Shown piece after piece: positions 7,748 through 46,315 of a stretch of DNA of 64,000 nt. The DNA comes from Hydrogenophaga sp. Its GTDB lineage: Bacteria; Pseudomonadota; Gammaproteobacteria; Burkholderiales; Burkholderiaceae_C. A program made the translations under genes and the position numbers. Below the pieces are notes generated by a model. The model was not told the DNA's origin. It did no database searches and saw only the letters and a program-made list of their open reading frames with translations. How positions within the stretch are numbered: the first letter of the stretch is position 1; each line of letters begins with the position of its first letter. The DNA lies in assembly GCF_030651625.1 (NCBI RefSeq), contig NZ_JAUSCF010000034.1:1-64000 (forward strand), written 5' to 3'.

Positions 7748-7820
7748 CCCACCCCCGTCGCTTCGCTCCGCCCCTCAAGGGGCAACCCCAGCGGCCCGGC
7801 AAAGCCGGTTCCGCGGGGTT
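7748..7820 (+). repeat. Three-hairpin intergenic element, copy A
   Basis: It fills the spacer between the monooxygenase and gentisate dioxygenase genes. In the direction of transcription it starts CCCACCCCCG, has a small hairpin in GCTTCGC, then hairpin CCCC-TCAA-GGGG (7771-7782), then a long hairpin 7784-7820. The arms of the last are AACCCC, bulged A, GCGG and CCGC, GGGGTT, around an inner CCGGC-AAA-GCCGG. See copies B to G for the compensating changes. Confidence 0.85.
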
Positions 7821-7868
7821 CGCTTGAAAAGTCATCTCGCTCGAACCACGCCTCATTCTGGAGACACC

Positions 7869-8909: not shown

Positions 8910-8991
8910 CCACCCCCGCGCCGCGCGTTCCGCGCGTCACCCCCTCAATGGGGCAATACCAGCGGCCCGGCAAAGCCGGTTCCGCGGTATT
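8910..8991 (+). repeat. Three-hairpin intergenic element, copy B
   Basis: It lies immediately after the dioxygenase stop. Hairpin II is CGCGCG-TTC-CGCGCG (8922-8936), hairpin I is CCCC-TCAAT-GGGG (8941-8953) and hairpin III spans 8955-8991 with arms AATACC, bulged A, GCGG and CCGC, GGTATT. Compared with copy A, both arms of hairpin III changed together, so pairing is kept. The orientation relative to transcription is the same as in copy A. Confidence 0.85.
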
Positions 8992-9037
8992 CCTGGATTG
9001 AGACACGCGCTCCGAGCACATTTTTCGAATATTCAAT

Positions 9038-17852: not shown

Positions 17853-17911
17853 GTGGCTCAAATCCTTGGTTCAATGGCCATGCAAAGTCGCGCGAAGTGC
17901 CTGGGTCCAGG

Positions 17912-17993
17912 GACATCGATGATCCAGCTTCGCCGGTCCAGGATGTCGACCCCCCCTCAGGGGGGTGGCGCCGAAGGCGACGCGGGGGGGGCC
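17912..17993 (-). repeat. Three-hairpin intergenic element, copy C
   Basis: It lies between the nitronate monooxygenase-like gene and nrdJ. Hairpin II is CGCC-GAA-GGCG (17970-17980), hairpin I is CCCCCC-TCA-GGGGGG (within 17951-17966), and the outer arms of hairpin III are GACATC (17912-17917) and GATGTC (17943-17948), with a diverged inner part CCAGC-TTC-GCCGG. It overlaps the last 12 codons and the stop of the upstream gene. Confidence 0.75.
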
Positions 17994-19228: not shown

Positions 19229-19914
19229 AAGGTTGGTAGCTGTGGGAGGCTAACGAAGCGGGCGCGAACGCGCCTTGTTCTGTGTCAAACACATGGGCTT
19301 CACGGTGCTCGAGCGCGCCATGTATGCCAAGCAATGGGGTGGGTATCTCAGTTGCCGAAATCGACAGCGCCCAGGCTCCGGCAGTTGGTTGGCGTGGACC
19401 CCCACCCCAGCCCTCCTCCAGCCTGGGAGGGAGAGAAGACACGTTCGCCTGAGGGGAAGTCCGATCCCGATCCCGTGTTCGGGCCCCTTCTGCCGGTGCC
19501 GAGGAGCGCAGCAGCGGGCGGAAAAAGGGCCGTGCATGTCTGAGCTGAAGGCGAGTTTGCACGGACCTCGCCCGCTGTGAGCACCACAGGTTGCCCCGGA
19601 GCGCAGCGTAGGGGTCACCGGCAGCAGGGTCGCCTTTCTTTGGCCTACGTTTCTTTGGCGAAGCAAAGAAAGGTAGGTCGGCCGCCGGGCCGAGACCCGG
19701 CCACACCAGCTTCCGGAGTGGCATGCCCCCACGCTCCACAGCTGGCGCGGGTCGCAGCTCCCCGAGGGGGCTGACCTTGCTTTGGGCGACCCTGCGCTGC
19801 GGTCGACCAATGCGCGGAGAGACCCCTCACCCAAACCCTCTCCCCAAAGGGGCGAGGGAGTGAAGGCACGCTCTCCGACGGAGGTCGCACCCAGCGCCGG
19901 GGGGGAGTGCTCCA
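19229..19914. repeat. 686-base intergenic region rich in repeats, no supported gene
   Basis: It separates the parvulin gene from the nitronate monooxygenase-like gene. Contents: hairpin CCCTCC/GGAGGG near 19409-19430; a segment at 19633-19673 with CCTTTCTTTG and CAAAGAAAGG arms plus an inner second copy of TTTCTTTG, so two hairpins compete; and CCCTC-x-CCCC-AAA-GGGG-x-GAGGG near 19835-19857. Frames open through it on both strands, but their products are Pro/Arg/Ser-rich and look like translated repeats. Parts resemble dispersed repeats I associate with Comamonadaceae genomes. Confidence 0.6.
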
Positions 19915-22206: not shown

Positions 22207-22260
22207 GACATCAAATCCTTCAATCGATCAACGGGGCGCTGGCTCGCCTGGGTTCCTGTC

Positions 22261-22340
22261 CAGAAACGCCGCGGAACCGGCTTTCCCGGGCCGCCAGCGT
22301 TGCCCCCTTGGGGGTCGCGCGAAGCGCGGCGGGGGTGGGC
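22261..22340 (-). repeat. Three-hairpin intergenic element, copy D
   Basis: It lies between narH and narJ. Arms of hairpin III in the transcribed direction are AACGCT, bulge, GCGG and CCGC, GGCGTT (22265-22301); the T/G pair is a wobble in the mRNA but would be a C/A mismatch on the other strand. Hairpin I is CCCCC-TT-GGGGG (22303-22314) and hairpin II is CGCGC-GAA-GCGCG (22316-22328). Confidence 0.85.
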
Positions 22341-22344
22341 CATC

Positions 22345-23877
22345 TCATGCCCCCAGCTTGATGGGGATGGTTCGCTTCTTCTCGCTGCCGAACAGGCTGG
22401 TTTCGGTCTCGCCTTCAGAACAACCGTTGCCGAACGTGAAGCCACAACCACCCTTGACGTTGAACGTGTTCTCGGCGTACTCGCGATGCGTGGTGGGAAT
22501 CACGAAGCGGTCTTCGTAGTTGGCGATCGCCATGTAGCGGTACATCTCCTCCACCTCGCGGGAACTCATGCCCACCTGGTCAAGCACGTCCTGATTGATC
22601 AATCCGTCCACGTGTTTGGTGCGCTGGTAAGCACGCATGGCCAGCATGCGTTCCAGTGCGCGCACCACGGGCCCGGTGTCGCCCGCAGTGAGCAGGTTGG
22701 CCAGGTACTTCACCGGAATGCGCAGCTGCGACACGTCGGGAATCTCGCCGTTGCTGCCCAGCATGCCGGCGTTGGCCACTGCGGTGATGGGCGACAGAGG
22801 CGGCACGTACCAGACCATGGGCAGGGTGCGGTATTCGGGGTGCAGCGGCAGCGCCACTTTCCATTCCACTGCCATCTTGTAGACCGGGCTCTGACGGGCC
22901 GCGGCCATCCAGGCGTCAGGGATGCCGTCGATGCGCGCCTGCTCGATCACCTTGGGGTCGTTCGGGTCCAGGAACAGGTCGAGCTGGGCCTGGTACAAGT
23001 CGATCTCATTGGGTGTGCTGGCGGCTTCCAGGATGCGGTCGGCGTCGTACAGCAGAACACCGAGGTAGCGGATACGACCCACGCAGGTCTCCGAGCACAC
23101 CGTGGGCTGCCCGGCTTCAATGCGCGGATAGCAGAAGATGCACTTCTCGGCCTTGCCGCTTTTCCAGTTGTAGTAGATCTTCTTGTAGGGGCAGCCGCTC
23201 ACGCACATGCGCCAGCCGCGGCACTTGTCCTGGTCGATCAGCACGATGCCGTCTTCCTCGCGCTTGTAGATCGAGCCCGATGGACACGAGGCCACACACG
23301 CCGGGTTCAGGCAGTGCTCGCACAGGCGCGGCAGGTACATCATGAAGGTGTTTTCGAACTGACCCATCATGTCTTTCTGGGTCTGCTCGAAACCGTCGAG
23401 GTTCGCGTCCTTGCTGCGTTTGGCAAATTCACCTCCCAGGATCTCTTCCCAGTTCGGCCCCCACTCGATTTTTTCCATGCGCTTGCCGGTGATGAGCGAA
23501 CGCGGACGCGCGGTGGGCGCGTGTTTCATCTCGGGCGCTGACTGGAGGTGGTCGTAGTCGAAAGTGAAGGGCTCGTAGTAGTCGTCGATCTGCGGCAGGT
23601 TGGGGTTGCTGAAGATCTTCATCAGCAGCGACCACTTGCCACCCTGCTTGGGCACGATGGAACCATCGGCCTTGCGGATCCAGCCACCGTTCCACTTGTC
23701 CTGGTTTTCCCACTCCTTGGGGTAGCCGATGCCGGGCTTGGTTTCCACGTTGTTGAACCAGGCATATTCGACACCGGGACGGCTGGTCCAGACGTTCTTG
23801 CAGGTGACCGAACAGGTGTGGCAGCCGATGCACTTGTCCAGGTTGAGCACCATGCCGATTTGTGCGCGTATTTTCAT
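22345..23877 (-). CDS. narH: Respiratory nitrate reductase beta subunit (iron-sulfur)
   Basis: A 510-residue cytoplasmic-side electron-transfer subunit with four Fe-S clusters linking NarI heme to NarG. The first Cys group is CIGCHTCSVTCKNVW near residue 17; later groups are CEHCLNPACVASCPSG, CRGWRMCVSGCPYKK, and CIFCYP with CSETCVGRIRYLG. The Trp in CRGWRMC marks the [3Fe-4S] cluster site, as in other NarH. Length is typical. Spacers on both sides hold copies of the three-hairpin element. Confidence 0.98.
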   Translation of the reverse strand: MKIRAQIGMVLNLDKCIGCHTCSVTCKNVWTSRPGVEYAWFNNVETKPGIGYPKEWENQDKWNGGWIRKADGSIVPKQGGKWSLLMKIFSNPNLPQIDDYYEPFTFDYDHLQSAPEMKHAPTARPRSLITGKRMEKIEWGPNWEEILGGEFAKRSKDANLDGFEQTQKDMMGQFENTFMMYLPRLCEHCLNPACVASCPSGSIYKREEDGIVLIDQDKCRGWRMCVSGCPYKKIYYNWKSGKAEKCIFCYPRIEAGQPTVCSETCVGRIRYLGVLLYDADRILEAASTPNEIDLYQAQLDLFLDPNDPKVIEQARIDGIPDAWMAAARQSPVYKMAVEWKVALPLHPEYRTLPMVWYVPPLSPITAVANAGMLGSNGEIPDVSQLRIPVKYLANLLTAGDTGPVVRALERMLAMRAYQRTKHVDGLINQDVLDQVGMSSREVEEMYRYMAIANYEDRFVIPTTHREYAENTFNVKGGCGFTFGNGCSEGETETSLFGSEKKRTIPIKLGA

Positions 23878-23928
23878 GATGTGTTGTCCTTGTTCAGCCG
23901 ACGGTCCGGTGCGAAGGGTTTGATCCAG

Positions 23929-24030
23929 TGAACACCGTGGAACCGCCCTTCGACAAGCTCAGGACGGGCCACTGGTGTTGCCCCCTTGAGGGGGTGACGC
24001 GCTGCAAGCGCAGCGCAGGGGTGGGCAACA
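23929..24030 (-). repeat. Three-hairpin intergenic element, copy E (with loop insertion)
   Basis: It lies between narG and narH. Arms of hairpin III in the transcribed direction are AACACC, bulged A, GTGG and CCAC, GGTGTT (23931-23979). The loop contains an extra block, TCCTGAGCTTGTCGAA, bounded by complementary CCCG/CGGG. Hairpin I is CCCCC-TTGA-GGGGG (23981-23994) and hairpin II is GCGCTGC/GCAGCGC (23999-24016). Confidence 0.85.
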
Positions 24031-24033
24031 AGC

Positions 24034-27000
24034 TCATGGGTTCTCGCCTTCGGACTGGTAGGCGCGGATGAGGTGATCGTCCGCCGGGGTGTCGAGCCAG
24101 TCGACCTTGTCCATCTTGCGCACCACCACGAATTCGTCGCGGTTGGTGCCGATGGTTCCGTAGTAGTTGAAGCCGTAGCTGAGCTGCGCGTAGCCGCCGA
24201 TCATGTGGGTGGGCTTGAGCACGATGCGGGTCACCGAGTTGTGGATGCCGCCGCGCACGCCGGTGATCTCGCTGCCGGGGGTGTTGATGATCTTTTCCTG
24301 CGAGTGGTACATCATCACCATGCCGGGGTTCACGCGCTGGCTCACCACTGCGCGGGCCGATACGGCGCCGTTGATGTTGAACAGCTCGACCCAGTCGTTG
24401 TCTTCAATGTCCGCTGCCTTGGCGTCTTCCTCGCTCAGCCACACCACGGTGCCACCGCGGTTGAGCGTGAGCATCATCAGGTTGTCGCTGTAGGTGGAGT
24501 GGATGCCCCACTTCTGGTGCGGCGTGATGAAGTTCAGCTGGATCTCTTTGTTGCCATTGGGCTTGATGTTGTGGATGCCCTCGGTGGTCTTGAGGTCCAC
24601 CGGCGGGCGGTAGCTGCCAAAGCCCTCGCCGAAAGCGATCATCCAGGGGTGGTCCTGGTAGAACTGCTGGCGGCCGGTGAGCGTGCGCCACGGGATGTAT
24701 TCGTGCACGTTGGTGTAGCCGGCGTTGTAGCTCACCGTCTCAGACTCGATGCCGCTCCAGGTGGGCGAGCTGATGATCTTGCGCGGTTGCGCCTGAATGT
24801 CGCGGAAGCGGATCTTTTCGTCCTCGCGGTACAGGGCCAGGTGGGTGTGGTCGCGACCGGTCTGCTTGCCCAGCGCTTCCCAGGCCTTCACGGCCACGTG
24901 GCCATTCGTCTCGGGTGCCAGCTGCAGGATCACTTCGCAGGCGTCGATGTCGGTGACGATGCGCGGCATGCCTTGCGACACGCCCTCGTCCAGCGTCTTG
25001 CCGTTGAGCTGACCCAGCTGTTCCACCTCGGTGCCGGTCTTCCAGCCGATACCCTTGCCGCCGTTGCCCAGCTTGTCGAGCAGTGGGCCCAGGGCGGTGA
25101 AGCGTTTGAAGGTGTTGGGATAATCGCGTTCCACCACGGTGATCTGCGGCGCGGTCTTGCCAGGGATCAGTTCGCAGTGGCCCTTCTTCCATTCCTTCAC
25201 TTCAAACGCCTGCGCCATTTCACCGGGGGTGTCGTGCATGATGGGCGTGAGCACCACCTCTTTTTCCACACCCAGGTGGCCCACGCAGACCTCGCTGAAG
25301 GTCTTGGCGAAACCCTTGTAGATCTCCCAGTCAGATCTGGATTCCCACACCGGGTCCACCGCTGCGCTCAGCGGGTGGATGAAGGGGTGCATGTCGCTGG
25401 TGTTGAGATCGTTCTTCTCGTACCAGCTGGCGGTGGGCAGCACGATGTCTGAATACAGACAGGTGGTGCTCATGCGGAAGTCGAGCGTGACCAGCAGGTC
25501 CAGCTTGCCCTGGGGGGCATTGGCGTGCCACTTGACTTCGGCCGGCTTGGCGTCGTCCTTGCCCAGGTCTTTGCCCTGCACGCCGTTTTCGGTGCCCAAC
25601 AAGTGCTTGCAGAAATACTCGTGGCCCTTGCCACTGGAGCCCAGCAGGTTGGAGCGCCACACGAACATGTTGCGTGGCCAGTTCTGCGGCGCGTCCGGGT
25701 CTTCGCAGCTCATCTCCAGCGTGCCGTCCTTGAGGGCCTTGACCGCATAGTCCCTGGGGTCCATGCCGGCGGCGGTGGCATCGCGCACCACCTGCATCGG
25801 GTTGGTCTTGAGCTGTGGCGCGCTGGGCAACCAGCCCATGCGTTCGGCGCGCACGTTGAAGTCGATCATGCTGCCGCTGAAGGCGGCCTTGTCGGCTTCG
25901 CTGAGGGTGGGCGAGACGATCTCTTCCATGCCGAGCTTTTCGTAGCGCCACTGGTCGGTGTGGGCGTAGAAGAAGCTGGTGCTGTTCTGCTGGCGCGGCG
26001 GACGCACCCAGTCGGTGGCAAAGGCCAGCGGCACCCAGCCGGTTTGCGGGCGCAGCTTTTCCTGACCCACGTAATGCGCCCAGCCACCACCGCTCTGGCC
26101 AATGCAGCCGCACATCATCAGCAGGTTGATGACGCCGCGGTAGTTCATGTCGGCGTGGTACCAGTGGTTCATGGCCGCGCCGATGATCACCATCGATTTG
26201 CCATGCGTCTTGTCGGCGTTGTCGGCAAACTGGCGCGCCACGGTGATGACCTGCTCGCGCGGCACGCCGGTGATGCTCTCCTGCCAGGCGGGGGTGTAAG
26301 CGGCGTTGTCGTTGAAGTCCTTGGCGCCTGAGCCCAGCCCCCGGTCGATGCCGTACTGCGCCACCTGCAGGTCGAACACGGTGGCGACCATGGCGTAGCG
26401 CTCGTCGCCGGCCTTGCCCAGGCGCAGACGCACCGCCGGCACCCTGGCGTGGTTGATGGCGCCGTTCTGCGCGTTGGCGGTGAAGTGCGGCGTGGCGTTG
26501 CCACCGAAGTAGGGGAAGCCCACGTCCACCACCTGGTGGTCCTGCTCACCGTCTTCGATGACCGAGAGCTTGAGTTTCACGTCGGTGTTGCCGCGTGCCT
26601 CCTTGGCTTCGAGGTTCCACTTGCCTTCGTCTTCGCGGCCTGCTTCGCCCCAGCGGAACCCGATGGAACCATTGGGCAGCACCGCCTTGCCCTCGGTATC
26701 GAACGCCACCGTCTTCCATTCGGGGTTGCTCTTCTGGCCCAGCTGACCGTTGAAGTCGCTGGCGCGCAGGTAGCGGTCGGGCACCATGCTCACCGTGCCG
26801 TCGGGCAGGGTGTGTTCCTTCAACATCACCAGCAGCGGCAGGTCGGTGTAGCGACGCGCGTAGTCGTCAAAGTAGCTGGACCGCGCTTTGCCGCCATCGG
26901 GGAAGTAAAACTCCTTCAGCGCCACGTGTCCCATGGCCATGGCCAGTGCAGCATCGGTACCCTGCTTGGGGTGCATCCAGATGTCGGACAGCTTGGCCAC

Positions 27001-27861
27001 TTCCGAATAGTCGGGCGTGACCGCCACGGTCTTGCAACCCTTGTAGCGCACCTCGGTGAAGAAGTGGGCGTCTGGCGTGCGGGTCTGGGGCACGTTGGAA
27101 CCCCAGGCGATGATGAAGCTGCTGTTGTACCAGTCGGCGGACTCGGGCACATCGGTCTGCTCGCCCCACACCTGCGGGCTGGCCGGGGGCAGGTCGCAGT
27201 ACCAGTCGTAGAAGCTCATGCACACGCCGCCAATCAGGGAAAGGTAGCGCGAGCCAGCGGCATAACTCACCATGCTCATGGCGGGAATGGGCGAGAAGCC
27301 GATGATGCGGTCGGGCCCATGCTGCTTGATGGTGTAGACGTTGGCTGCAGCGATCAGCTGGTTGACCTCGTCCCAGGAACTGCGCACAAAGCCCCCCATG
27401 CCACGCACCTGCTGGTAATCGCGGCGGGCGTCGGCGTCTTGCTGAATGAGGGCCCAGGCGTCCACCGGGCTCTTGCTCACCTTCAGTGCGGCACGCCAGC
27501 GCTCCAGCAGGCGCCCGCGCACCATGGGGTACTTCACGCGGTTGGCGGAATACAGGTACCAGCTGTAGGAAGCGCCCCGCGCGCAGCCACGCGGCTCGTG
27601 GTTGGGCATGTCCCAGCGGGTGCGGGGGTAGTCGGTCTGCTGGGTTTCCCAGGTGACGATGCCGCCCTTCACGTAGATCTTCCAGCTGCAGCTGCCGGTG
27701 CAGTTCACGCCGTGCGTGCTGCGCACGATCTTGTCGTGCGCCCAGCGGTTGCGGTAGCCGTCTTCCCAGGTGCGGTCTTCGTTGGTGGTGAGACCGTGGT
27801 TGCCCGAGAAGGCTTCCTTGGGCAGGCTGAAGTGGGTGAGTCGGTCGAGGAAATGGCTCAT
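24034..27861 (-). CDS. narG: Respiratory nitrate reductase alpha subunit (molybdenum)
   Basis: The 1275-residue catalytic subunit that reduces nitrate to nitrite at a Mo-bis-MGD centre on the cytoplasmic face. The FS0 cluster motif HGVNCTGSCSWKIYVKGG lies near residue 50. NHEPRGCARGASYSWYLYSA and the segment WYNSSFIIAWGSNVPQTRTP, with the region holding the Mo-ligand Asp, match the family. TDYPRTRWDMPN near residue 80 is equally typical. Length is normal. It is part of the minus-strand operon narK2-narG-narH-narJ-narI. There is no twin-arginine leader beyond the vestigial N-terminus typical of NarG. Confidence 0.98.
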   Translation of the reverse strand: MSHFLDRLTHFSLPKEAFSGNHGLTTNEDRTWEDGYRNRWAHDKIVRSTHGVNCTGSCSWKIYVKGGIVTWETQQTDYPRTRWDMPNHEPRGCARGASYSWYLYSANRVKYPMVRGRLLERWRAALKVSKSPVDAWALIQQDADARRDYQQVRGMGGFVRSSWDEVNQLIAAANVYTIKQHGPDRIIGFSPIPAMSMVSYAAGSRYLSLIGGVCMSFYDWYCDLPPASPQVWGEQTDVPESADWYNSSFIIAWGSNVPQTRTPDAHFFTEVRYKGCKTVAVTPDYSEVAKLSDIWMHPKQGTDAALAMAMGHVALKEFYFPDGGKARSSYFDDYARRYTDLPLLVMLKEHTLPDGTVSMVPDRYLRASDFNGQLGQKSNPEWKTVAFDTEGKAVLPNGSIGFRWGEAGREDEGKWNLEAKEARGNTDVKLKLSVIEDGEQDHQVVDVGFPYFGGNATPHFTANAQNGAINHARVPAVRLRLGKAGDERYAMVATVFDLQVAQYGIDRGLGSGAKDFNDNAAYTPAWQESITGVPREQVITVARQFADNADKTHGKSMVIIGAAMNHWYHADMNYRGVINLLMMCGCIGQSGGGWAHYVGQEKLRPQTGWVPLAFATDWVRPPRQQNSTSFFYAHTDQWRYEKLGMEEIVSPTLSEADKAAFSGSMIDFNVRAERMGWLPSAPQLKTNPMQVVRDATAAGMDPRDYAVKALKDGTLEMSCEDPDAPQNWPRNMFVWRSNLLGSSGKGHEYFCKHLLGTENGVQGKDLGKDDAKPAEVKWHANAPQGKLDLLVTLDFRMSTTCLYSDIVLPTASWYEKNDLNTSDMHPFIHPLSAAVDPVWESRSDWEIYKGFAKTFSEVCVGHLGVEKEVVLTPIMHDTPGEMAQAFEVKEWKKGHCELIPGKTAPQITVVERDYPNTFKRFTALGPLLDKLGNGGKGIGWKTGTEVEQLGQLNGKTLDEGVSQGMPRIVTDIDACEVILQLAPETNGHVAVKAWEALGKQTGRDHTHLALYREDEKIRFRDIQAQPRKIISSPTWSGIESETVSYNAGYTNVHEYIPWRTLTGRQQFYQDHPWMIAFGEGFGSYRPPVDLKTTEGIHNIKPNGNKEIQLNFITPHQKWGIHSTYSDNLMMLTLNRGGTVVWLSEEDAKAADIEDNDWVELFNINGAVSARAVVSQRVNPGMVMMYHSQEKIINTPGSEITGVRGGIHNSVTRIVLKPTHMIGGYAQLSYGFNYYGTIGTNRDEFVVVRKMDKVDWLDTPADDHLIRAYQSEGENP

Positions 27862-27945
27862 GTGGGGTCTCCGGAGATTGGGCGACGTTTCATGTCAGTG
27901 AGGCGTGGCGAAGGATCAGGTCGGCATCGATGGAAGGGATGTGGG

Positions 27946-28043
27946 TCCAGGGACACCGAGGAGCCGCCCTTCGACAAGCTCAGGACGGGCCTCTGGTGTC
28001 GCCCCACTCCCAGGGGGGTGGCGCCGAAGGCGACGCGGGGGGT
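27946..28043 (-). repeat. Three-hairpin intergenic element, copy F (with loop insertion)
   Basis: It lies between narK2 and narG. Arms of hairpin III in the transcribed direction are GACACC, bulged A, GAGG and CCTC, GGTGTC (27952-28000), again with compensating changes relative to copy E. The loop has the same TCCTGAGCTTGTCGAA insertion. Hairpin II is CGCC-GAA-GGCG (28022-28032), as in copy C; hairpin I is weaker. Confidence 0.82.
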
Positions 28044-28053
28044 AGTCATCCAC

Positions 28054-29730
28054 CTATGGGTTCTTGATTTCGGAACCAGCGCGCAGGTAGAACCACCAGT
28101 TCAGCACCAGGCACACCGCGTAGAAGATGGCGAAGCCATACATGGCGTATTCGGGTGTGCCGGCCTTGATCTGCTGTCCGATCACCACCGGTGCGATGAA
28201 GGAGCCGTAGGCGCCAATGGCCGAAGTCCAGCCCAGCACGGGGCCGGCTTGCTGGCGGTCAAAGATGACGCCGATGGTGCGGAAGGTGGACCCGTTGCCA
28301 ATGCCGCTGGCGGCAAACAGCACGATGAACAACACCATGAAGATCAGGAAATAGTCTTCCGGCGTGGCCGACTTGTAGGCCAGCAGCATCACGTAGCCCA
28401 CCGCAGCAGAAGCGAACACCATCACGGCCGAGATCACCTGGGTCACGATGGAGCCGCCGAGCTTGTCGGAGATCCAGCCGCCCAGGGGACGGATCAGTGC
28501 GCCCACCAGAGGGCCGATCCAGGCGTAGGTCAGTGCTGAGGGTGCGTTCGGGTTCTTCAGCGTGTGGGTCATCAGGCCCGTGGCCGGATCGATCACGTGC
28601 TGAAAACCGAAGATCACGGTGATGGACAACGGCAGCGCCATCGAGAAGCCGATGAAGGAGCCGAAGGTCACCACGTACAGCGCGGTCATCGACCAGGTGT
28701 GCTTGTTGCTGAAGATGGCGTACTGCTTGCCGATGTTGGCCTTCATCTCACCGAAGGCCGCCAGCTTCATCACCACCACGGTCACCACCACGATCAGCGG
28801 CAATGCCACCCACATGTTGAGCAGGCCCAGGCCGGTGGGCGCAGGCAGATAGAGGTACAGGCCAATCAAGCCGATGACGCTGGTGAGCACCCACAGGTAA
28901 ATGATCTTGCCGAAAGCGGCCAGGGTGCCGCCGTAGTTGGGCGACAGGGGCATCAGGTTGTTCATGCCGAACCACGCGGCGATGACCAGCGGCACCAGAA
29001 TGGCCGCCCAGATGAAGCCGGCGTTCTGGATCCAGGTTTCGGTGCCGGCGGTGATCTTGCCCAGAATCCAGCCCGAGTCCTTGATCAGCGTCATCGACTC
29101 ACCCGCGAAGGTACCGAACACCGCGGCCGTCATGGCCAGGGGAATCAGCACCTGCATGGTGGTCACGCCGAAGTTGCCCAGGCCGGCGTTCATGCCCAGC
29201 GCCATGCCTTGCTGGTTCTTGGGGTAGAAGCCGGTGATGTTGGACATGGAGCAGGCGAAGTTGCCGCCGCCAATGCCCGAGAGAAATGCGCAGAGCTGGA
29301 ACACCCACAGCGGGGTGGACTTGTCTTGCAGTGCGAAGCCGGTGATCACCGCCGGAATGATCAGCAGCGCACTGGTCAGGAAGATGGTGTTGCGCCCGCC
29401 AGAGAGCCGGATGAAGAACGAGGCCGGGATGCGGAATGTCGCCCCCATGAGACCGGCGATGGCGGTGAGCGTGAAGAGCTCGGCCGGTGCAAACGGGAAG
29501 CCCAGGTTGAGCATCTGCACGGTGATGATGCCCCACATCAACCAGACGGCGAAGCCGACCAGCAGGTTGGGAATGGAGATCCAGAGGTTGCGGGTGGCAA
29601 TGGCTTTGCCCTTGGCAGCCCAGAAGGTGGCATCTTCAGGTCGCCAGTCGACGATATCGGCGCCCGAATAGGTCTGGATTTGCGCGCTGGCCGCACCAGC
29701 TGGTGTGGGGCGCGTGTTCGTGGTGCTCAT
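28054..29730 (-). CDS. narK2: Nitrate/nitrite antiporter NarK2-type MFS transporter
   Basis: A 558-residue inner-membrane transporter of the nitrate/nitrite porter family. It has a cytoplasmic N-terminal segment ending in RPEDATFWAAKGKAIATRNL and the two glycine-rich nitrate signatures, seen as GIGGGNFACSMSNITGFYPK and AASGIGNGSTFRTIGVIFD. The pattern and length are those of type 2 NarK, which mainly exchange nitrate for nitrite. It lies directly upstream of narG on the same strand and has its own leader of 260 bases, because narK1 is closed off by a terminator. Confidence 0.93.
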   Translation of the reverse strand: MSTTNTRPTPAGAASAQIQTYSGADIVDWRPEDATFWAAKGKAIATRNLWISIPNLLVGFAVWLMWGIITVQMLNLGFPFAPAELFTLTAIAGLMGATFRIPASFFIRLSGGRNTIFLTSALLIIPAVITGFALQDKSTPLWVFQLCAFLSGIGGGNFACSMSNITGFYPKNQQGMALGMNAGLGNFGVTTMQVLIPLAMTAAVFGTFAGESMTLIKDSGWILGKITAGTETWIQNAGFIWAAILVPLVIAAWFGMNNLMPLSPNYGGTLAAFGKIIYLWVLTSVIGLIGLYLYLPAPTGLGLLNMWVALPLIVVVTVVVMKLAAFGEMKANIGKQYAIFSNKHTWSMTALYVVTFGSFIGFSMALPLSITVIFGFQHVIDPATGLMTHTLKNPNAPSALTYAWIGPLVGALIRPLGGWISDKLGGSIVTQVISAVMVFASAAVGYVMLLAYKSATPEDYFLIFMVLFIVLFAASGIGNGSTFRTIGVIFDRQQAGPVLGWTSAIGAYGSFIAPVVIGQQIKAGTPEYAMYGFAIFYAVCLVLNWWFYLRAGSEIKNP

Positions 29731-46216: not shown

Positions 46217-46296
46217 GGCCTCCTGCCGAGCCGCCTCAGAGGCCGCTTGCGCCCCTTTGGGGGGAAGTGATGACACGACGTGTCGAACGTGGGGGT
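46217..46296 (-). repeat. Three-hairpin intergenic element, copy G
   Basis: It lies between the diheme cytochrome c and cytochrome b genes. Outer arms of hairpin III are GGCCTC (46217-46222) and GAGGCC (46239-46244), hairpin I is CCCC-TTT-GGGG (46252-46262) and hairpin II is GACAC-GAC-GTGTC (46272-46284). The sequence of each hairpin differs from copies A to F, but the order, pairing and orientation are kept. Confidence 0.72.
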
Positions 46297-46315
46297 ACAT
46301 GGTTTGCTTCGTTGT

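Follow-up and report, generated by a model that had tools for sequence, protein, structure and literature searches.

A composite repeat of three hairpins behind stop codons in Hydrogenophaga and other members of the Comamonadaceae group

The nar genes and the hairpin repeats of the window

The DNA analysed here (the window) comprises 64,000 nucleotides of Hydrogenophaga sp., positions 1 to 64,000 of contig NZ_JAUSCF010000034.1 (assembly GCF_030651625.1). It contains the genes narG, narH and narJ, the products of which were confirmed by Pfam, and upstream of narG a gene for a transporter of the major facilitator superfamily (MFS), which was named narK2 in a preliminary description of the locus. 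As stated there, hairpin-forming elements are located 3' of narH (copy D), 3' of narG (copy E) and 3' of the MFS transporter gene (copy F). They are copies of a composite repeat of palindromes, about 80-115 bp in length and here called the type I repeat, which is found in the Comamonadaceae group, where the genomes of many soil and water bacteria contain tens to hundreds of copies. In the order of transcription, the stop codon of the upstream gene is followed by a C-rich leader, the hairpins H1, H2 and H3 and a conserved CTGGA tail. Genes were called by our own codon-usage script, not by a standard caller, and about 30% of the source genome (4.27 Mb) was examined for context.

Seven copies (A to G) had been presented as one element with a common orientation. 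The hairpins and H3 arms exist as claimed, copies A, B, D, E and F fold accordingly, and each of the seven copies is sense to both called flanking genes. The assignment to one element holds for copies A to F; five of them are matched by a covariance model of the type I repeat (R1), and copy C lies at its edge of detection (Table 1). Copy G, however, fits a sister repeat (type II), which has the same leader-H1-H2-H3 layout but another H3 core. A probable further type II copy at 19.7 kb was absent from the earlier list.

Table 1. Type I and type II repeats in the 64-kb window
Copy	Position	Strand	Components (H3 arms)	R1 match	Context and remarks
A	7748..7822	+	leader 7748-7756; H1 about 7757-7768; H2 7771-7782; H3 7784-7820 (AACCCC/GGGGTT)	7771-7825, 66.6 bits	first base directly after upstream stop (7747)
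B	8910..8992	+	H1 8922-8936; H2 8940-8953; H3 8955-8991 (AATACC/GGTATT)	8940-8996, 78.5 bits	first base directly after stop of cupin-domain gene
C	17912..17991	-	H3 17912-17947; H2 17950-17965; H1 about 17968-17983	17907-17964, weak, E=0.0096	
D	22265..22341	-	H3 22265-22301 (AACGCT/GGCGTT); H2 22303-22314; H1 22316-22328; leader to 22341	22260-22314, 60.2 bits	narH/narJ; just behind narH stop (22345)
E	23931..24028	-	H3 23931-23979; H2 23981-23994; H1 23998-24017; leader to 24028	23926-23994, 56.5 bits	narG/narH; narG stop at 24034; inner H3 hairpin swapped for CTGAGCTTGTCGAAG tip
F	27952..28044	-	H3 27952-28000 (CTGAG tip); H2 28002-28018; H1 about 28020-28036; leader to 28044	27947-28015, 46.8 bits	narK2/narG; upstream stop at 28054
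G (type II)	46217..46297	-	H3 46217-46244 (GGCCTC/GAGGCC); H2 about 46252-46264; H1 about 46270-46284	none	3' of dihaem cytochrome c gene (Pfam); fold and type II scan
Probable further type II	19725..19807	+	degenerate H2		antisense to called neighbours; type II scan

Architecture of the type I repeat

H1 and H2 are hairpins with C/G runs, and H3 is a bulged hairpin whose arms are variable yet complementary. RNAalifold, which was given 26 full-length copies of the source genome and no structure, recovered 3 bp of H1, 6 bp of H2 and 15 bp of H3. In H3, a variable outer stem of 6 bp is followed by an unpaired base (79 copies: A in 41, T in 27) and a stem of 4 bp; further inward lie an internal loop (C/TT) and the conserved tip CCGGC-AAA-GCCGG. 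The bulge and the internal loop are conserved across genera. In 77 copies, conservation sets in at the leader, which is C-rich and G-poor next to the stop codon. It declines some 25 nt past H3, beyond the CTGGA motif. The 79 copies of a single genome contain 49 distinct pairs of H3 arms, which indicates that the arms have diversified extensively.

A separate palindrome of the source genome, CTGAGC-N2-GTCGAAG (CCGTTCG..CTGAGCCTGTCGAAG), also exists in standalone copies, which differ from the type I repeat in that they lack the H1-H2-H3 arrangement, and some of which form facing pairs like a dimer of repetitive extragenic palindromes (REPs; C18:320563/320602 and C36:102765/102850). Of 87 type I copies, six (among them copies E and F of the window) carry its tip, which appears to have been exchanged into H3, in place of the inner hairpin. 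The CTGAGC tip was dropped as a key to the repeat family because it is restricted to these six copies.

Copy number and taxonomic distribution

A search of the whole source genome for the H3 core with up to three mismatches resulted in 222 matches, compared to none for the reversed pattern; this control and a covariation above that of shuffled alignments (see below) rule out that the family arose by chance. R1 was built from 72 of 124 candidates, namely all 49 of the source genome and 23 of 75 from relatives, and identified 113 copies in 1.26 Mb of the source genome, which corresponds to about 8.9 per 100 kb. With 6 R1 matches in the window and 5.7 expected from this density, the nar genes are not a special target. 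Neighbouring copies within 250 bp have the same orientation in 12 cases and opposite orientations in 2, and head-to-tail tandem copies with a spacing of 84-129 bp, including one triplet, are found at C34:246897-247183, C18:234163-234336 and other sites.

R1 also matched 35 of 36 genomes of the genus (source genome included) and none of 24 genomes from other families of the order. Across the 67 genomes of the genus (source genome included), the core pattern has 0 to 300 matches per genome, with the lowest values at control level; 66 of these genomes contain it. The core is also present in 99 of 120 genomes of the family, some of which (such as G007, G016 and G036) are not above the reversed control. 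Outside the family, no genome in a phylum sample of 200 had more than 7 core matches, with controls reaching 11. Carriers named among the matches listed are Variovorax, Acidovorax, Polaromonas, Ramlibacter, Pseudacidovorax, Xenophilus, Rhodoferax and Hydrogenophaga as well as metagenome-assembled genomes named Rubrivivax and Roseateles.

Placement and orientation

The 113 R1 matches are distributed over 75 co-directional, 27 convergent and 6 divergent spacers, 4 sites inside called genes and 1 edge; spacers of at least 60 nt available in the same sample number 434, 91 and 148, respectively. All 75 copies in co-directional spacers are sense and none is antisense. With the element start estimated as the H2 start minus 28 nt, 59 of these 75 copies and 15 of the 27 convergent copies begin within 15 nt of a stop codon. 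In convergent spacers, the stop codon of the sense gene is the nearer one in 20 of 27 cases, and the element ends within 15 nt of the antisense stop in 3 of 27. All three stop codons precede the element; TGA, however, is rarer there (47 of 74 genes) than in other called genes (865 of 1048; p = 0.0002).

The relatives' loci were chosen by an exact core match, and many of them are from Variovorax; they comprise 126 copies at 118 loci among the matches listed, which is the scope of all counts given for relatives in this and the covariation section, and 100 of the 118 loci entered the subsequent analysis. In co-directional spacers, 69 of these copies are sense and 9 antisense, and the remainder is found in convergent (24) and divergent spacers (4), in genes (2) or at locus edges (18). 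The open reading frames flanking the nine copies look like real antisense cases. The non-random orientation thus persists beyond the seven copies for which it was first noted. It is a strong bias, which is exceptionless only in the type I sample of the source genome.

Presence and absence at orthologous junctions

At 29 nar loci of other genera, the script detected no type I repeat at either narH junction; type II is located at narG/narH in L238 and L244, and an H1-H2-like stretch was seen by eye at narH/narJ in L234. Within the genus, 3 of 29 relatives contain type I at narH/narJ (L259 and L266 by script, L284 by eye) and 3 of 29 at narG/narH (L266 and L276 by script, L263 by eye). One locus carries type II at narG/narH (L269), and four loci (L273, L275, L277, L278) show no narG end upstream. 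Since most relatives are devoid of the element at the orthologous junctions, the nar copies look, from this comparison of sequences, like recent insertions and not like conserved regulators of the nar genes.

The junction of copy B is occupied by type I in L287, L288, L291, L300, L301, L302, L304 and L306 (script); L298 has a remnant there (by eye). Type I was found at the copy A junction in L290, L291, L296 and L297 (script) and L306 (by eye), with a remnant in L303 (by eye); absence is weaker evidence at this junction because the upstream context seems to differ in many of the relatives. All script-detected copies at orthologous junctions are sense with the exception of one antisense type II call at L297, which is taken for a cross-match with type I. 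At narG/narH, copy E and the copies of L266 and L276 have flanks and arms in common but not the tip of H3; tips thus seem to have been exchanged. The orthologs at the copy A junction have common H3 arms and different H1-H2 modules (by eye).

In G114, of which 1.2 Mb was analysed, 21 of 102 entries tried (20 distinct junctions) were syntenic with element-bearing junctions. One of the 20 junctions contains type I, three contain type II (by eye) and 16 neither; among the latter, two have a terminator-like hairpin with a T-run (by eye), and the one corresponding to copy C is a gap of 1139 bases. When no hairpin was flagged, the spacers of the co-directional entries (16, in which one type II junction still appears twice) have a median length of 25 nt versus 167 nt in the source genome. 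Orthologous spacers without the element are often operon-like, many of them being 1-60 nt long. The junction syntenic to copy F is a spacer of 58 bases, in which CCGCCCCCGCGCGTTCCCGCACCCCCCGC might be what is left of leader and H1. The dispersed nature of the repeat, to which insertion polymorphism, remnants and tandem copies belong, had not been considered in the preliminary description.

Covariation and wobble pairs

Covariation of the H2-H3 structure was assessed in 72 sequences, the preselection of which required a stretch resembling H2 and a core close to the consensus. Standard pairs account for 94.9% of the pairs versus 83.2% in shuffled alignments, and 159 changes on both sides of a pair were counted versus 36.1, a total reached by none of 500 shuffles. 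The number of pairs showing such changes is 11 versus 8.4 and was reached by 14 of 500 shuffles. The true structure beats slid versions on each covariation measure. The covariation reported for the window copies therefore holds with many copies, and the earlier claim of selection on RNA structure is partly supported; selection at the RNA level, however, is not secured.

An RNA that is folded in the sense direction is expected to show an excess of G-U over A-C mismatches. In model-aligned sequences, the ratio of G-U to A-C in H3 is 47:29 in the source genome and 17:18 in relatives (total 64:47, p = 0.13), that in H2 is 25:24 and 41:18 (total 66:42, p = 0.03), and H2 and H3 together give 130:89 (p = 0.007), with model-fitted alignments leaning towards standard pairs. 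When sequences were anchored on the core without a model, the ratio is 22:15 in the source genome and 12:16 in relatives (total 34:31, p = 0.80). The T/G wobble in the H3 arms of copy D, which had been put forward as a sign of an RNA structure, is real and at most part of this weak trend. Watson-Crick pairs make up 92% of the H3 cells in the source genome and 96% in relatives. Pairing is maintained; the counts do not settle whether RNA or DNA is the molecule concerned.

Comparison with known repeats and RNA elements

According to the main text of PMC3733652, REPs and the bacterial interspersed mosaic elements (BIMEs) formed by them belong to GTAG- and CGTC-tagged super-families. They are palindromes outside genes, with varied stems and a high copy number, which occur mostly in unidirectional and convergent spacers and lie near the 3' end of the open reading frame upstream. 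The type I repeat shares these properties; it is likewise extragenic and located near gene 3' ends, with only 4 of 113 R1 matches in called genes. In contrast to REPs and BIMEs, it consists of three hairpins with H3 as the largest, is strongly biased in its orientation to the upstream gene, lacks a tag beside H3 and a flanking gene for a REP-associated tyrosine transposase (RAYT), and has head-to-tail neighbours. The main text of PMC3733652 does not contain the words burkholderia, acidovorax, comamonad, delftia or variovorax, and it lists C. taiwanensis. An exact GTAG, CGTC or TGTC within 6 nt outside H3 was found in none of 87 copies and GGAG in 2 of 87, the 5' side being read as is and the 3' side as its reverse complement. 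The C. taiwanensis of that list is presumably a Cupriavidus and thus a member of the same order. A REP being a palindrome of 20-50 nt beside an unpaired tag, the missing tag argues against membership in the GTAG/CGTC REPs, and the 12 same versus 2 opposite neighbours, which do not alternate, argue against a BIME.

The type I repeat is also not an intrinsic terminator, as no T-run directly follows H3 in 26 aligned copies (26 of 36 listed copies). It does not belong to an Rfam family, since the window has no match at the gathering level; the four matches at E<=10 between 22200 and 24100 all lie within narH. No such element is named in the titles or abstract openings of the literature searched, subscription papers and supplements being outside reach, and four 16-mer forms of the repeat core were not found in the open paper texts searched. 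The earlier statement that no named element fits can thus be maintained. The candidate RNA Burkholderiales-1, which appears without an Rfam number in a table of PMC2864571, resembles the type I repeat in taxon, by name only. Because this candidate is known to us from that table line alone, novelty is claimed only against Rfam and the literature searched.

Integron attC sites are bulged hairpins with free arm sequences that follow a stop codon in a fixed orientation, and in this they resemble the type I repeat. The type I arms, however, appear to lack the conserved attC core. In E. coli, translation is reported to be lowered by REPs located 15 nt or less from a stop codon (PMC12306157, citing its reference 17). 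These REPs and the type I repeat both form stable hairpins that start just behind the stop codon; they differ in sequence and taxon.

A gene with a Y1_Tnp domain (IS200/RAYT-like) is located at C34:30239-30523 of the source genome. It is present in 58 of 67 genomes of the genus, in 56 of them as a single copy, and possibly has been domesticated.

Proposed origin and function: a mobile repeat transcribed as 3'-UTR hairpins

On balance, we lean towards a family-specific, mobile, REP-like composite repeat that is transcribed as hairpins of the 3' untranslated region (3' UTR) and probably stabilises or insulates the upstream message. Such a non-autonomous repeat would spread via an enzyme and gain copies by insertion. 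By landing in a short operon spacer, the element would become the 3' UTR of the upstream gene, where its hairpins might act passively, as is held for those of REPs and BIMEs, by blocking 3'-to-5' RNases and thereby protecting the upstream message. It would furthermore separate the upstream cistron from the next one and loosen their coupling, so that stability and translation ratio of neighbouring cistrons could be altered without stopping transcription. The sense bias might result from this RNA role or from a cost of the reverse orientation, in which the transcript would contain two G-runs versus one. For stop-proximal copies, lowered translation, by analogy with the REP hairpins of E. coli, is a ready alternative outcome. 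If the role at the RNA level is true, hundreds of messages in members of a large environmental bacterial family bear a common 3'-UTR module, and closely related species that differ in having it provide natural experiments on operon stoichiometry.

Several observations weigh against this reading. The G-U excess expected of a sense RNA is weak, both in the model-fitted counts of H3 and H2 and in the anchored ones, and 9 of 78 co-directional copies in the relatives, among the matches listed, are antisense. The closeness to the stop codon may simply be due to the spacers being short and the ribosome-binding site of the next gene having to be preserved. Furthermore, a mobilising enzyme was not identified, the Y1 transposase being the candidate examined. 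Its gene is also present in genomes with 0-1 element copies (G329, G332, G350), and it was not found in G318, which is 99% complete and has 26 element copies. The 9 kb around the Y1 gene of the source genome contain no core match. Among 12 further Y1 loci, each of about 2-3 kb, one (L318) has a single weak match and the other 11 have none. The Y1 transposase is therefore unsupported as a partner, given this mismatch in distribution and the lack of a flanking element.

It is possible, although clearly less probable, that the repeat is a REP-like element at the DNA level, whose hairpins are maintained through recognition by a single-stranded-DNA transposase or a nucleoid protein; the RNA would be a by-product and the sense bias the result of purging harmful orientations. 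The equal anchored G-U and A-C counts, the insertion polymorphism, the widespread single-copy Y1 gene and the conservation of bulge and internal loop across genera, as in the TnpA-REP substrates described in PMC8266576, are in line with such an element. However, GTAG and CGTC are both missing from the 6 nt beside the H3 arms, the Y1 genes are not flanked by the element, the head-to-tail neighbours are unlike BIMEs, the model-fitted counts favour G-U, and the bias of 75:0 would require a separate cause. If true, this would be a repeat with an orientation bias not found described for ordinary REPs.

A further, likewise less probable proposal concerns the covariation, which could arise without selection if template switching in quasi-palindromes or the exchange of whole hairpins between copies keeps the arms complementary. 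Few intermediates are found, as is seen from the Watson-Crick fractions of H3, and both the common H3 arms with different H1-H2 modules at the copy A junction and the identical arms with a different H3 tip at copy E (by eye) would be consistent with exchange. This mechanism, however, leaves the orientation unexplained, and the 49 arm pairs in 79 copies speak for much diversification. In any case, covariation among dispersed repeats need not signal a riboregulator of the adjacent genes.

Compared to these possibilities, a transcription terminator at gene ends, acting via Rho and the C-rich leader or by pausing at the hairpins, is improbable. The location immediately after stop codons, the presence in convergent spacers and the C-rich, G-poor leader would suit this function, but no T-run directly follows H3, orthologous spacers without the element are often operon-like, and ordinary terminators with hairpin and T-run are present at two of the junctions in G114 (by eye). 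Strong or efficient termination is also unlikely because three copies lie inside one nar operon. An attenuator or processing site that sets the NarK2:NarG:NarH:NarJ ratios, as suggested by the element at three consecutive nar junctions, is largely refuted and highly improbable, since the repeat follows genes genome-wide, has only average density in the window and is missing at the nar junctions of most relatives, so that its association with nar is incidental.

The type II sister repeat

The type II repeat, to which copy G belongs, consists of the leader CCCCCACGCTC, H1, H2 (CCCCCCGAGGGGG) and a different H3, which is built around TTGGGGCGGCCCGGCGG. Type I sequences in antisense were also matched by the loose type II pattern; the type II copies counted here were picked by eye from its matches. 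In G114, co-directional type II copies are sense in 8 cases and antisense in none, with 5 further copies in convergent spacers, 1 in a divergent spacer and 1 in a gene; in the sample of the source genome, 5 are sense and 2 antisense, and the window copy at 19.7 kb is one of these two. The type I pattern was too loose to be used in G114, as 52 of its 61 matches lie in genes and the co-directional rest comprises 3 sense and 2 antisense matches.

Two of the three junctions with type I in the source genome and type II in G114 are among the 14 eye-picked intergenic type II copies (1112 called genes in G114). About 0.25 type II copies would be expected at type I junctions by chance, with a probability of 0.027 for two or more. 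A rather speculative reading is that types I and II are interchangeable, sense-oriented 3'-UTR modules in Comamonadaceae, either as a mobile element targeting the ends of translated messages or as an RNA module that was repeatedly selected at the same gene ends. If the mobile version is true, the orientation of the element is fixed by the direction of transcription.

Further observations on individual copies

When plasmids were searched with copy E by blastn, a single partial match, in Variovorax, was obtained, and the exact core was found in one contig of a viral collection. Downstream of copy B lies a run of five T, which is not adjacent to H3. In copy C, H2 contains the called stop codon (17957-17959) of the upstream nitronate monooxygenase-like gene; because this stop falls within the element, the insertion may have changed the C-terminus of the protein.

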